Below, piece after piece: positions 13,779 to 25,433 of a stretch of DNA of 57,127 bases. This DNA comes from Klebsiella pneumoniae (lineage in GTDB: Bacteria > Desulfobacterota > Binatia > UBA12015). Where the stretch lies: the NCBI GenBank assembly GCA_945872365.1, contig CAMBZJ010000020.1:1-57127 (forward strand), in the 5' to 3' direction. The notes under the pieces are model-generated. The model made no database searches and was not told where the DNA came from. It saw only the letters and a list, made by a program, of their open reading frames with translations. Numbering within the stretch: position 1 is the stretch's first letter; every line of letters begins with the position of its first letter. The position numbers were made by a program, and so were the translations under genes.

Positions 13779-14412
13779 TCCCGAACGCGGTACTGGCGGC
13801 CAGCAGCAGCTGGCCGCCGTAATACAGCGGCAGCCCCCAGAGCTGGTTGGCGAACCCGGGGGCGACGAAGCGCTCCCGGGCGACGGCTAAGTCGGACACG
13901 GCGAACATCACCGCGCCGAGGAGCAGGGCGGCGTTGGGTGCATGTCCGAACGTCCCGAACGCGCAGGCGACCATCGTGCTGATGACCGAGACGTAAGCCC
14001 GAACCGGCACGCTCATCTCCGCGGGAACCCGGTCGCGCAACCAGGCCCACGACGCGAGCGCCGGCCCCACCATGAGGGCGGCCGCCGGCAGCAACCACGC
14101 GATCGAGACGCCGCGCTGCAGGAACGAGATCGCAAAGGCCAGGTGACCTAGGAGAAAACTTCCGAGCCCGGCCAGGAAAGCGCTGCGCGAGCCCTTCGGG
14201 ATGAGCAGCACGTCGCCGAGCCAACCGAGCATGAGACCGGCGAGGACGAGCCGGCCCCAGGAGGTCTCCCGGGCACCGGCCGCGAGGGCGGTCAGGATGA
14301 ACCCGGTCGAGGCGAGCGGCTTTGCAACCCACTTCGCGGCCTGCGAACCCGCGGCCTCCGCCGCGACCAGCAGCGCGACGAGGACGAGCGTGGCGACGAT
14401 CCAAGGCTGCAC
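13765..14412 (-). CDS. YhhN/TMEM86-family lysoplasmalogenase-like membrane protein
   Basis: The 215-residue, eight-helix membrane protein matches the YhhN/TMEM86 family. The two acidic active-site regions LGWLGDVLLIPKG (about residue 65) and VMFAVSDLAVARERF (about residue 175) are present, and the C-terminal LWGLPLYYGGQLLLA is typical. Characterised members hydrolyse the vinyl-ether bond of lysoplasmalogens. An alkylglycerone-phosphate-synthase-like gene is 34 kb away in this window, so ether lipids may be made and turned over by this organism (inference). The ATG lies at 14410-14412. Confidence 0.85.
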   Translation of the reverse strand: MQPWIVATLVLVALLVAAEAAGSQAAKWVAKPLASTGFILTALAAGARETSWGRLVLAGLMLGWLGDVLLIPKGSRSAFLAGLGSFLLGHLAFAISFLQRGVSIAWLLPAAALMVGPALASWAWLRDRVPAEMSVPVRAYVSVISTMVACAFGTFGHAPNAALLLGAVMFAVSDLAVARERFVAPGFANQLWGLPLYYGGQLLLAASTAFGISAA

Positions 14413-14552
14413 GCCCCAGCGCTATCCGATCCGAGGGTACGGCGCGAATCCGCAGCCCGGCCCCCGCTTGCGAAGGCCGGGTCTCGAGCGGAGGGGCTGA
14501 CGACCGCAGTAGCGAACCGAGCCGGAGGGCCATGAGAACCCCTCCTCGCGCT

Positions 14553-14574
14553 CGTGCCGCCCGTCTGCGGCACG
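14553..14574 (-). terminator. GC-rich hairpin just after the aroQ-pheC fusion gene
   Basis: The 8-base arms CGTGCCGC (14553-14560) and GCGGCACG (14567-14574) are perfectly complementary around a 6-base loop. They lie directly after the stop codon at 14576-14578. There is no T-tract, so intrinsic termination is only possible, not certain. Confidence 0.4.
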
Positions 14575-14575
14575 A

Positions 14576-15912
14576 TCAGGGCTCGGCTGGAGGTCGCGAG
14601 ACCCCGGGCGACTGCGGAACCACGGCGGCGGCCGGCAGCGACGCCAGCGCAACCGCCATGCGCGCGACGTCGTCGCGCTCGAGCCCGGGTACCGGCGCGC
14701 TCTCCCGGATCGCCGCCGCGATCTCCAGGGCCGACGCGCCGAGCGGCGCCGAGCGCGCCAACTCCGCGAGAATCTGCCCGTCGATGCGGGTGATCGCCGG
14801 GTGCAGCCCGGCCTCCAGATCCGGCGAGGCCGCTTCGCCGGCATCGGGTGCATTCGCCTCGGTCGCGCTCGCGGCCCGCCCGCGGCGCGGCGCCTCCGCG
14901 GCGAGGACCGCGCGCTGCACATTCTTCGCCGCCTCCATCTGAGCGCGTGCGAAGACCGCCACGCGCGCATCGTCGAGACCCGCGGCGCGCGCGCCGGCAA
15001 GGTAGGACTCCATGACCCTGGCCTCGCGCTCGGGGTCCTCGACCGGGCGGCCGGCGCGGCGCTTCGACTCGGCGACGAGCGGCATGAGCATGAGCCTGCG
15101 TCCGACGAGTTCGGCGACGCGCGTGCGCGCATCGGGTGCGGCGGCGGGCTCGATCCCGAAGCGCGTGCGCAGCGCCGGCAGCGTTCCGTCGGCCTCGCGC
15201 TCCGCGATCCATGCGTCGAGATCGTCGGCGAGGGCCGGGTCGCCGCGCGTCACCCACCAGGCCTTGCGGTCGCGCGAAAGCACGGCGGCGACCTGCGGCA
15301 TCTGTCCGTCGGGGTCGGGATAGAAGCTCGCGAGTTCGGCGGCGTCGATCACGACCGCGTCCACGCGGCCGCGGGCGAGCAGGTCGGCGAGCGAGCGGTT
15401 GTCGTCGACCGGCTCGATTCCGGCCGCGGGCAGCATGCTCCGGGCGATGCGTTCCATATGGCCGCCGTGGTTCACGGCGACCCGGAGGCCGGCGCCGTTC
15501 CTCGCGAGATCGAACCGGGGCGTACCCGCGGGCACGACGAGGACCGCCTCGGTACGTGCCACCGGCATGGTCATCGGCGAGCGGGCCAGCCGATCGCCCC
15601 GGACCGTCACGCCGCTCATCGCGACGTCGAAGTCCCCGCGCTTGAGCCGGTCCGCCAACTCCGGCCAGCGAAACGGCACGAACTCGAGCGGGCGATCGCG
15701 ATCGCGCGCATAGGCGCGCGCCGCGTCGACGTCGAACCCGAAGAAAGCTCCGTCGCCGGCTTCCGCGCTATAGGGCGGGTAGTCGCCGCTCGTGCCGACG
15801 CGCAGGGGGCCGACCGGGGCGGGCCCGCGCCGACCGGCGGTGCATGCGGCACCGAACGCGGCGAGCAGGAGGACCGTGGCGACGAGACGCCCGAGCCCGC
15901 AAGGGAGCGCAT
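14576..15912 (-). CDS. exported fusion: cyclohexadienyl/arogenate dehydratase (PheC-type) + chorismate mutase (AroQ gamma)
   Basis: The N-terminal half is a solute-binding-protein-3 fold of the PheC kind: LRVGTSGDYPPYSAEAGDGA, FGFDVDAARAYARD, GDFDVAMSGVTV, NHGGHMERIARSMLP, and VVIDAAE, whose Glu matches the catalytic position of cyclohexadienyl dehydratase. The C-terminal half is a periplasmic AroQ-gamma chorismate mutase: RRLMLMPLVAESKRRAGRPV, EDPEREARV and FARAQMEAAKNVQ. Together they would turn chorismate into prephenate and then phenylpyruvate (or Phe from arogenate) outside the cytoplasm. A hydrophobic leader ending in AAFGAACTAG suggests a lipoprotein or periplasmic export signal. The main frame has no ATG, GTG or TTG before this leader. 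ATG 15910-15912, with GGAG upstream, is one frame off, so a one-base indel near 15885-15898 is likely. The NPGGTN signature of PheC is altered to NHGGHM. thrH is divergent, 37 bases away. Confidence 0.82.
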
Positions 15913-15949
15913 GCTTGTCGCTCCGCCGGGCCTCGGTTAGCGTCGGCCC

Positions 15950-16564
15950 ATGATCGCGTGCCTCGATCTCGAAGGAGTTCTGGTCCCGGAGATCTGGATC
16001 AACGTCGCGGAGCGCACCGGCATCGCCGAACTGCGCAGGACCACGCGCGAGGAGCCGGACTACGACAAGCTCATGCGCGAGCGGATCGAGATTCTCGACC
16101 GCCACGGCCTCAAGATGCGCGACATCAGCCTCGCCATCGACTCGATGGGGCCGCTGCTCGGTGCGCGCGAGTTCCTCGGCTGGCTGCGCGAGCGCGCACA
16201 GGTGATCATCCTTTCCGACACGTTCTACCAATTTGCTGCCCCCCTCATGCGCCACCTCGATTACCCCTGTCTGTTCTGCAACGACCTCGAGGTGGACGCC
16301 CAGGACAAGGTGACGGGGTATCGGCTCCGCCTCCCCGACGGCAAGCGCCGCGCGGTCGAGGCCCTGCGGACCCTCAACTTCCGCATCGTCGCCGCCGGCG
16401 ACTCCTACAATGACACGACCATGCTCGGGGCGGCCGACGGGGGCATCCTCTTCCGCCCCCCGCAGAACGTGATCGACGAATTCCCGCAGTTCCCGGTCGC
16501 CGCGAACTACGACGAGTTGAGGGACGCCTTCGTGAGCCTCTCCGGGGGCGAGATGGAGCCCTGA
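15950..16564 (+). CDS. thrH: ThrH: bifunctional phosphoserine phosphatase / homoserine phosphotransferase
   Basis: The 204-residue HAD-superfamily protein is of normal ThrH length. Motif I is [11 protein letters not shown], motif [12 protein letters not shown], and motif [20 protein letters not shown]. The segments [10 protein letters not shown] and [15 protein letters not shown] are typical of ThrH rather than SerB. The known activity removes phosphate from phosphoserine and can transfer it to homoserine, linking serine and threonine synthesis. The start ATG 15950 is 37 bases from the divergent fusion gene start, so the promoters must overlap. Confidence 0.92.
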
Positions 16565-16566
16565 AG

Positions 16567-16612
16567 CCGGGCCGAGCCCCCCCCGTCCGGGACGGGCTTC
16601 GGCTCCCCCGGT
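16567..16612 (+). terminator. possible hairpin terminator after thrH
   Basis: GCCGAGCCC and GGGCTTCGGC form a near-perfect stem around a C-rich/GTCCGGGAC loop shortly after the thrH stop. There is no clear T-tract. A weak call. Confidence 0.3.
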
Positions 16613-16663
16613 AGAGTCGGGCGCGACTTTCGCCGACCGCGCCTCTTGTTGTAGGCTCCGGTC

Positions 16664-17128
16664 ATGTATCGCTTGCCCAAGGAGTTGCACGACGACCTGA
16701 AGAAGCATGCCCTCGAGGCCTATCCCGAGGAGTGCTGCGGCTTCATCCTCTTCGACACCGAGGAGGAGGTCGAGATCGTGCGCCGGATCCGCAACGTCGC
16801 CACCGAGCGCCACCAGAAGGACCCGCAGAACTTCCTCCGCGACGGCCGCGACGGCTACGTGATGGACGAGAAGGAACTGCTCGAGGTCAGTCGCGACCTC
16901 GACGGCCAGCGCTTCGAACTGCGCTGCATCTACCACTCCCACCCCAACGGCAAGGCCTACTTCTCCAAGGAAGACGAGGCGCGGGCGAAGATGTGGGACG
17001 AGCCGATCTACCCCGAGGCGATCTACATCGTGCTCGGCGTGGATGGTCATTCGGTGACCGGCATCTCGGGCCACGTCTGGAACGAGGATCGCCTGGAGTA
17101 CGAGGACGTGAAGATCGCTCGGGGTTGA
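16664..17128 (+). CDS. JAMM/MPN+ (Mov34-type) metallopeptidase
   Basis: The 154-residue protein is a single JAMM domain. The catalytic Glu lies in YPEECCGFILF (about residue 24), and the zinc motif is HSHPNGKAYFSKED (HxH, seven residues, SxxD) near residues 88-101. Bacterial members remove C-terminal tails from ubiquitin-like sulfur carriers such as ThiS/MoaD relatives, or cleave isopeptide bonds. No sulfur-carrier gene is adjacent, but the MoaD at 41001 in this window has a tail after its Gly-Gly. The gene sits 22 bases before mlaE. Metal and substrate are inferred from the family. Confidence 0.85.
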   Translation: MYRLPKELHDDLKKHALEAYPEECCGFILFDTEEEVEIVRRIRNVATERHQKDPQNFLRDGRDGYVMDEKELLEVSRDLDGQRFELRCIYHSHPNGKAYFSKEDEARAKMWDEPIYPEAIYIVLGVDGHSVTGISGHVWNEDRLEYEDVKIARG

Positions 17129-24605: not shown

Positions 24606-25433
24606 TCAGCGCGGCTCCCACTTCGGCACCCAGCGGCGCAGGACGCCCCCGAGTGTTCCGTCGCGCTTCCAGCGCTCGAGCGCCTGGTCCACCCGCTCGC
24701 GCAGGCGACGGCTCGCGGGCCGGAGGCCCCAGCCGATCGAGTCTTGGGTGAGCAGCGGGTGCAGGAGGGGGAGCAGGGCGCCCTCGTCGCTCGCCGCGTA
24801 CCAGGCCACCGTCGGCCCGTCGGAGACGAAGGCGTCGATACGGCGCTGCTCGAGTTCGGCGATCGCGTTGGTGTTCGAAGCGTAGCTGAACACCTGGCTG
24901 TCGGGTGCGTTCTCCCGCACGTATTTCTCGCCCGTCGTACCCTTGGTGACGCCGATGCGCTGGGCCTCCTTGAGCGCCTTCGTCGGGGTCTTGAAGCGGG
25001 TCGCGTCGCCGCGCCGGACCAGCACCGCAAGGCCGGACTTGAGATAGGGCTGGCTGAAGTCGACCTGCAACTCGCGAAGCCGGGTGATCGTCATGCCCGA
25101 CATGACGATGTCGACCCGCTTGTCGAGGAGCGCGGGCACGAGTTCCTCATAGGACATCGTGAAGACCCGGAGCGGGTGCCCGAGTTCCTGGCCCAGGTAG
25201 GTCGCGAGATCGACGTCGATGCCCGCTGGGTGATCCCCCTGGCGGAAGGAGAAGGGCGGCGCGTCCTGGACCATTCCGATGCGGATCGGGGGGATCGGCG
25301 TCGGCGTCGGAACCAGATCCATCGGATCGGGCGGTCGCGACGCGGAACAACCTGCACTCGCTACCAGCACCGCGACGAGGAGCAGGCTCGCCCCCCACCC
25401 GCGCACCCTCGAAGCGACGCTGCGCAAGATCAC
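24606..25433 (-). CDS. amino-acid-type substrate-binding lipoprotein (SBP family 3)
   Basis: The 275-residue protein has a signal peptide with lipobox (VLVASAGC, Cys about 29) and a short Pro-Thr linker. The SBP_bac_3 fold follows: IRIGMVQDAPPFSFRQGDHP, AGIDVDLATYLGQELG, DIVMSGMTIT and RIDAFVSDGPTVAWY. Such proteins bind polar amino acids or similar solutes. No ABC permease or ATPase gene lies nearby, so it may serve a distant transporter, a sensor, or be an enzyme derived from this fold. The ligand is not predictable here. Confidence 0.85.
   Translation of the reverse strand: MILRSVASRVRGWGASLLLVAVLVASAGCSASRPPDPMDLVPTPTPIPPIRIGMVQDAPPFSFRQGDHPAGIDVDLATYLGQELGHPLRVFTMSYEELVPALLDKRVDIVMSGMTITRLRELQVDFSQPYLKSGLAVLVRRGDATRFKTPTKALKEAQRIGVTKGTTGEKYVRENAPDSQVFSYASNTNAIAELEQRRIDAFVSDGPTVAWYAASDEGALLPLLHPLLTQDSIGWGLRPASRRLRERVDQALERWKRDGTLGGVLRRWVPKWEPR

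Follow-up and report, generated by a model that had tools for sequence, protein, structure and literature searches.

The window, that is, the whole stretch of 57,127 nucleotides that was analysed, contains a single open frame on its minus strand, running from about 15913 to 14576, in which a hydrophobic leader, a PheC-like (cyclohexadienyl dehydratase, CDT) domain and a chorismate mutase (CM) domain follow one another up to a TGA stop codon (Table 1). In a Pfam search the 423-amino-acid stretch matched SBP_bac_3 (E 6e-23, residues 15-230) and then CM_2 (E 3e-10, residues 244-312), so that the proposal made in an earlier note on this DNA, namely that both domains lie in one frame, was borne out. 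The motifs that had been singled out (DAAE, NHGGHM, EDPERE and AQMEAAKNVQ) are all present in the translation of the fusion, and the predicted hydrophobic leader does precede the domains in the same frame, with a lipobox-like end (...AAFGAAC). The 5' end that had been placed at 15912 has to be abandoned, as 14576-15912 spans 1337 nt, which is no multiple of three, and the ATG at 15912 belongs to another frame that stops after 98 amino acids.

Table 1. Features at the fusion locus, in window coordinates.
Feature	Position	Strand	Basis
Mature fusion protein (from the residue preceding the lipobox Cys), including the stop codon at 14576-14578	14576..15847	-	Translation; Pfam SBP_bac_3 and CM_2; closest solved structure 8cq6, E 1.2e-34
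PheC-like (cyclohexadienyl dehydratase) domain, altered site NHGGHM ... DAAE	15150..15805	-	PaCDT identity 28%; model residues 1-218 against 5hpq, Z 27.0, rmsd 1.8 Å over 214 residues
AroQ-gamma chorismate mutase domain	14640..15135	-	CM_2 E 3e-10; TIGR01806 59.5 bits; CM-domain profile to 6cnz 5e-30 and 2f6l 1e-15
Export leader, relaxed lipobox end LLLAAFGAAC, no in-frame ATG/GTG/TTG inside	15842..15913	-	Leader sequence
thrH (phosphoserine phosphatase/homoserine phosphotransferase), divergent neighbour, not part of the enzyme	15950..16564	+	NCBIfam NF010109 E 1e-92
Prok-JAB metalloprotease-like gene, after thrH	16664..17128	+	E 8e-18; kept in 11 loci of the window's family

Reading upstream from the mature part in the frame of the domains, the first possible start (ATG, GTG or TTG) is a GTG at a distance of 100 codons. 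By a simple rule, a start codon of one of these three types is absent from the n-region of the signal peptide in nine of the 12 distinct loci of the window's family (the window copy together with L009, L014, L018, L019, L023, L025, L026 and L027), compared with five of 80 loci elsewhere. A programmed frameshift supplying the start was considered and rejected, since the CATG-derived ATG is missing in L009, L024 and L025 and the required shift varies by locus. A simple consensus scan of positions 14300-16700 for a sigma-70 promoter and a terminator returned none. The divergent thrH gene adjoins the fusion in all 12 distinct loci of the family. Eleven of these carry a promoter-like element, TTGTCG-N17-TAG(C/G)GT-N6-ATG (15915-15952 on the plus strand of the window), which is absent from the output of the consensus scan and would give a leaderless thrH mRNA. 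It was also observed that in each of the same 11 loci the thrH ATG and the start of the mature fusion are separated by a multiple of three nucleotides (99-201 nt, with 10 distinct values); in the twelfth, L031, which has its own ATG, the separation is 101 nt.

The AlphaFold2 model of the protein was obtained with a pLDDT of 91.5 and a pTM of 0.89. The best PDB sequence matches, far beyond chance, are the solved CDT-CM fusions 8cq6 (E 1.2e-34) and 8cq4 (E 3.6e-33), which have the same domain order, and Foldseek also ranks these two first, over 399-402 alignment columns. The CDT part of the model superposes on 5hpq at 1.8 Å over 214 residues, although the fold alone is indecisive as to function because AncCDT-1, an ancestor that binds amino acids, reaches a Z score of 27.4 against 27.0 for PaCDT. 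When the full chain was compared with 8cq6, 348 residues were aligned at an rmsd of 24 Å (23-24 Å for both solved fusions), which suggests that the domain orientation predicted by the model differs from that in the solved fusions. The VIA-align rows mostly span model residues 1-223 and thus carry little information on the CM part.

Relatives were collected by two routes. A search of 58 whole genomes near the window's genome yielded a strong match (E 2e-39 or better) in 29, most of them across both domains; G048 gave a further match, at a contig end. A scan of GTDB 220, with one genome per species, employed two short patterns (one being VN[RA]GG[HY]LE), and the best 80 of 121 related stretches were retained. 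After removal of broken, cut and duplicate rows (L021 and L038, in which the CM frame is broken; L042, at a contig end; L016, whose protein equals that of L031; and 14 duplicates at >97% identity) the final set comprised 92 distinct sequences, the majority of them belonging to the window's own class or to records that carry the label Myxococcota or Deltaproteobacteria. L070, which came in via the GTDB 220 pattern scan, is the same contig as L021, and its CM frame looks broken. As many as 89 of the 92 sequences continue into a CM domain, the remaining three (L009, L130 and L132) being cut by contig ends. A class-wide profile search gave matches at E 1e-30 in 48 of 148 genomes, of which four (G023, G029, G203 and G265) match the solute-binding part alone; the fusion family is present in 44 of the 148, some copies being cut by contig ends or frame-broken. 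Copies cut by contig ends excepted, no unfused protein with the A-H/Y-L site was seen in the relatives surveyed. Branch members were also encountered in records titled Xanthovirga aplysinae (Bacteroidota; L103), Opitutales (L095), Thermoanaerobaculia (L138) and Spirochaeta (L076), which may be transfers or mislabelled bins. The protein of L072, from a record titled Klebsiella pneumoniae (isolate TH-08apr19-175), is >97% identical to that of the same-class genome G049 (L020), and the record is probably a mislabelled metagenome bin.

The dehydratase site was compared using PaCDT numbering and the nine PheC site residues Y22, W60, K100, N128, T132, N133, N152, T169 and E173, the last of which has been described as the general acid of cyclohexadienyl dehydratase in PMC7683729. 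Across the 92 sequences Y22, W60, R85, N128, E134, N152 and E173 are invariant, while K100, T132 and N133 are retained in none. Position 100 is occupied by Ala (82), Pro (6) or Val (4), position 132 by His (80), Tyr (7), Ile (3) or Val (2), and position 133 by Leu (90) or Met (2); position 169 is more varied, with Thr in 72, Ser in 16, Ala in two, and Ile and Val in one each, the lone Ile being that of the window's protein. The combinations at 100/132/133 are AHL (73), AYL (7), VHL (4), PIL (3), AHM (2), PVL (2) and PHL (1), with E173 present throughout. These counts must be read with the knowledge that H/Y132 and L133 were partly selected for, because the scan used the pattern given above and only its best 80 of 121 stretches were retained; in the pattern-free subset of 26 rows from the 58-genome search, positions 132/133 read HL in 20, YL in four and HM in two. 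The motif NxGGHL/M is characteristic of the branch as a whole. The cysteines of the PheC disulfide have also been lost (C106 in all 92 sequences, C185 in all except one). The protein of the window carries K100A, T132H, N133M and T169I next to Y22, W60, N128, N152 and E173 as in PheC, and thus the statement that the catalytic region is kept holds for E173 and fails for four of the nine site residues, because of which the dehydratase activity is treated here as predicted. In PMC10520331 all nine residues and the disulfide cysteines are reported as conserved in every fusion investigated there, and in JbCDTCM Thr159 (the T132 equivalent) is described as contacting a bound buffer sulfonate directly and Lys127 (the K100 equivalent) through water.

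Comparison with binding proteins helps to interpret this pattern. Among the solute-binding paralogues encoded in the family of the window, both N128 and E173 are missing in 16 cases out of 16, which makes a catalytic domain likelier than a binding domain; a further locus, L052, yielded no translation and is not counted. The absence of the N128/E173 pair, by which an amino-acid solute-binding protein would be recognised, is not what the branch displays, as the pair is present in 92 of 92. Identity to PaCDT ranges from 26 to 38% across the branch, and the invariance of Y22, W60, N128, N152 and E173 at such distances argues for catalysis. Three of the four class matches confined to the solute-binding part were read: L181 and L182 are devoid of Y22, N128, N152 and E173, and the unfused L183 possesses W60 and aligns a Glu with position 173, but lacks Y22, N128 and N152; a Ruegeria protein annotated as substrate-binding only (L146) has a Glu aligned at 173 without N128. 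As judged from these alignments, a Glu at 173 alone is no proof of a dehydratase. A second SBP_bac_3 protein (24606-25433, minus strand; E 1e-30), without E173 and N128, is encoded about 9 kb from the fusion, and its counterpart in G001 (L023:3915-4589), likewise without both residues, lies about 8 kb from the fusion there (L054 and L055 are the two copies).

The mutase domain scores 59.5 bits against TIGR01806, under the curated cut-off of 74.15, and across 148 genomes of the phylum this model gave weak matches in 49 genomes and none above the cut-off. A profile built from eight CM domains (six of the branch and two of published fusions) retrieved the exported mutases 6cnz (5e-30), 5ts9 (9e-21) and 2f6l (1e-15). 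Among the 89 CM domains, the equivalents of MtCM R49, K60, E73 and V/I76 are each found in all 89, A105 in 77, D69 in 42 and R72 in 62, with Lys at position 106 in 65 and Gln at position 109 in 83. The position that probably corresponds to R134, assigned by alignment alone, holds Arg in 87 of 89 and His in the window's protein, which keeps the equivalents of R49, K60, D69 and R72. This His and T169I are each unique to the window's copy among the rows.

The origin of the branch was addressed with an IQ-TREE phylogeny of the CDT domain from which columns 100, 132 and 133 had been removed and in which 53 of the 92 branch rows were included. The CDT domains of the branch form a single clade (support 100/97), whereas those of the Janthinobacterium and Duganella fusions group with PaCDT (100/96) inside the set of ordinary CDTs, ten in all, which as a clade has weak support (89/28). 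A constraint uniting the two published fusions with the branch was rejected by the AU test on this domain (p-AU 0.00101), and two or more independent origins of the CDTCM order are indicated by the evidence of this domain. Thus, on the CDT domain alone, the fusion branch appears to be of separate origin.

Regarding localisation, the export signal that characterises CDTCM enzymes is present here as a hydrophobic leader and a lipobox-like Cys. The latter follows the leader in all 12 loci of the window's family (six strict and six relaxed, the window copy being relaxed) and, by a simple pattern that gives a lower bound, in at least 36 of the 92 branch loci. In the window's family the fusion is probably an exported, membrane-held lipoprotein, and the many relatives in which no lipobox pattern is recognised may be soluble proteins of the periplasm.

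Recurrent neighbours across the 92 loci include an alpha/beta hydrolase cluster (46 loci), a cold-shock-domain gene (44), NadE and queuosine salvage (39 each), a YegS-type kinase (36), a MaoC-domain gene (35), a short ArsP_1-type predicted permease (24) and aconitase (22), clusters that were named from one to five scanned members each, the others being without a Pfam match or overlapping the fusion in antisense. About 40 of the 92 loci have a common gene order, with NadE upstream and a divergent cold-shock gene, and with queuosine salvage and the YegS-type kinase downstream on the opposite strand; the NadE and MaoC genes are located upstream, on the same strand as the fusion. The ArsP_1-type gene (about 170 amino acids in L120, at L120:7225-7728 on the minus strand) matches the first half of the ArsP_1 profile and is no operon mate, because it lies downstream on the opposite strand. 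No aromatic-pathway gene, aminotransferase or ABC transporter was found among the recurrent neighbours identified in the 92 loci, and the transport argument made in PMC10520331 finds little echo here, the ArsP_1-type gene apart. The window's genome (G000) encodes a cytoplasmic-type PheA (CM-PDT; C9:60868-61644), and a cytoplasmic-type PDT (PF00800) occurs in 55 of the 58 genomes, this one included, so that housekeeping phenylalanine synthesis by the fusion is unlikely. A function as a defence protein was also considered and dropped, with no PADLOC match.

Taken as a whole, the evidence suggests that the fusion is probably a separately evolved, exported bifunctional chorismate mutase/prephenate dehydratase with a rebuilt pocket. 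The C-terminal AroQ-gamma domain would convert chorismate to prephenate, and the PheC-like domain at the N-terminus, in which Glu173 would serve as the general acid, would convert prephenate to phenylpyruvate, the intermediate passing by free diffusion between the two sites. The protein would work as the published CDTCM fusions do, but, to go by the CDT domain, would have arisen through a fusion event of its own. In its dehydratase site the Lys100, Thr132 and Asn133 of PheC have mostly given way to Ala, His and Leu. Its most likely role may be the disposal or salvage of chorismate and prephenate outside the cytoplasm, because the genome has a normal cytoplasmic PheA. The view of the earlier note that one exported protein performs both steps to phenylpyruvate is sustained insofar as an exported CDT-CM fusion is present and its published counterparts do both (PMC10520331), whereas for this protein the activity is a predicted one. 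Its further suggestion of a channelled route fared worse: published fusions of the same architecture have active sites 35-40 Å apart, and PMC10520331 reports neither a kinetic gain from fusion nor feedback inhibition, nor any evidence for channelling.

It could be argued that the PheC-like domain has returned to binding or sensing, the mutase making prephenate and the second domain acting as a receptor that holds prephenate, chorismate or phenylpyruvate without turnover. The solute-binding fold, to which amino-acid binders are as close as PaCDT, the universal replacement of K100, T132 and N133, the Glu at 173 in L146 and L183, where the rest of the site is missing, and the short ArsP_1-type predicted permease gene that 24 of 92 loci carry downstream of the fusion, on the other strand, are consistent with such a function, and a signalling role has been proposed for their own fusions by the authors of PMC10520331. 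This reading is nevertheless rather unlikely in view of the five residues that never vary, of the 16 paralogous binders that are without E173 and N128, and of the recurrent neighbours identified, among which there is no signalling-type ABC transporter, chemoreceptor or kinase.

Alternatively, the second domain may be an enzyme whose substrate is prephenate (or arogenate, or some analogue derived from chorismate) and whose product or preference differs from that of PheC, owing to the Ala/His/Leu pocket. This would fit a near-fixed replacement set (AHL in 73 of 92) combined with an E173 that is always kept, and is also considered unlikely, given that the fused partner should supply prephenate and that the rest of the site matches PheC. 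A decaying or misassembled gene in the window's genome might be suspected from the leader devoid of an in-frame ATG, GTG or TTG and from the two site changes seen in no other row; this is very improbable, since the frame is open throughout, a start codon is likewise missing from eight further loci of the family, and purifying selection acts on the fusion, with dN/dS against the same-genus genome G001 of 0.335 (CDT) and 0.337 (CM). One CM-domain pair (loci L028-L029) gave a dN/dS of 0.84, at a low dS of 0.118. A broader and bolder proposal is that the branch constitutes a separate class of enzyme derived from solute-binding proteins and acting on prephenate, in which the Ala100/His132/Leu133 pocket confers a non-PheC product, specificity or sensing output and whose fusion to the exported mutase was maintained as Myxococcota and Binatota evolved; we regard it as doubtful. 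With respect to the favoured reading, a bifunctional enzyme with a rebuilt pocket, what the alignments indicate is an architecture that is known by its layout, in a separately evolved and widespread variant with a rebuilt dehydratase site.

The reason why bacteria export a chorismate mutase together with a prephenate dehydratase is a standing puzzle (the 'hidden overflow pathway'), and the presence of a distinct branch with a far wider distribution suggests repeated selection for joining both enzymes outside the cytoplasm. An invariant Glu173 next to a replaced triad represents a natural test of which PheC residues turn a binder into an enzyme. Carriers deposited as named strains, such as Archangium lansinium MIWBW and Hyalangium versicolor H56D21, offer the opportunity of a deletion study.

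Exported CM/CDT fusions have been reported as extremely rare, from nine species (JBC 2023, PMC10520331), and the present branch is far commoner than that. Searches for chorismate mutase with Binatota and for cyclohexadienyl dehydratase with Myxococc-, in a literature coverage mostly outside the subscription journals, retrieved no published account of it. According to the same paper, the order CDTCM occurs in beta-proteobacteria and CMCDT in gamma-proteobacteria, and both activities were demonstrated in vitro for six fusion enzymes, with published kinetics and complementation. The same architecture has been published and solved and is thus known already, as is the double activity that it probably confers. 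The closest systems are the CDTCM enzymes of Janthinobacterium sp. HH01 and Duganella sacchari (8CQ4 and 8CQ6), which are alike in the order of CDT and AroQ-gamma CM, in the export signal and in both folds, the CDT parts being 30% and the CM parts 30-35% identical; they differ in that K100, T132, N133 and the disulfide are gone here and the CDT clade is separate. The gamma-proteobacterial CMCDT of Aequoribacter fuscus (8CQ3) joins the same two domains in one exported chain, in the opposite order. The periplasmic PheC/PaCDT of Pseudomonas aeruginosa (5HPQ and 3KBR) shares the fold and E173, Y22, W60, N128 and N152, whereas the protein described here is 28% identical to it, has an altered A-H-M set, where most of the branch has A-H-L, and is fused to a mutase. 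The exported AroQ-gamma mutases (6CNZ, 5TS9, 2GBB and MtCM 2F6L/2FP2), which were matched at profile E values of 1e-15 to 5e-30, have the export signal in common with it and are stand-alone proteins, unlike the fused domain found here, which falls under the TIGR01806 cut-off and in which Lys and Gln replace E106 and E109 of MtCM, as they do in the published fusions.
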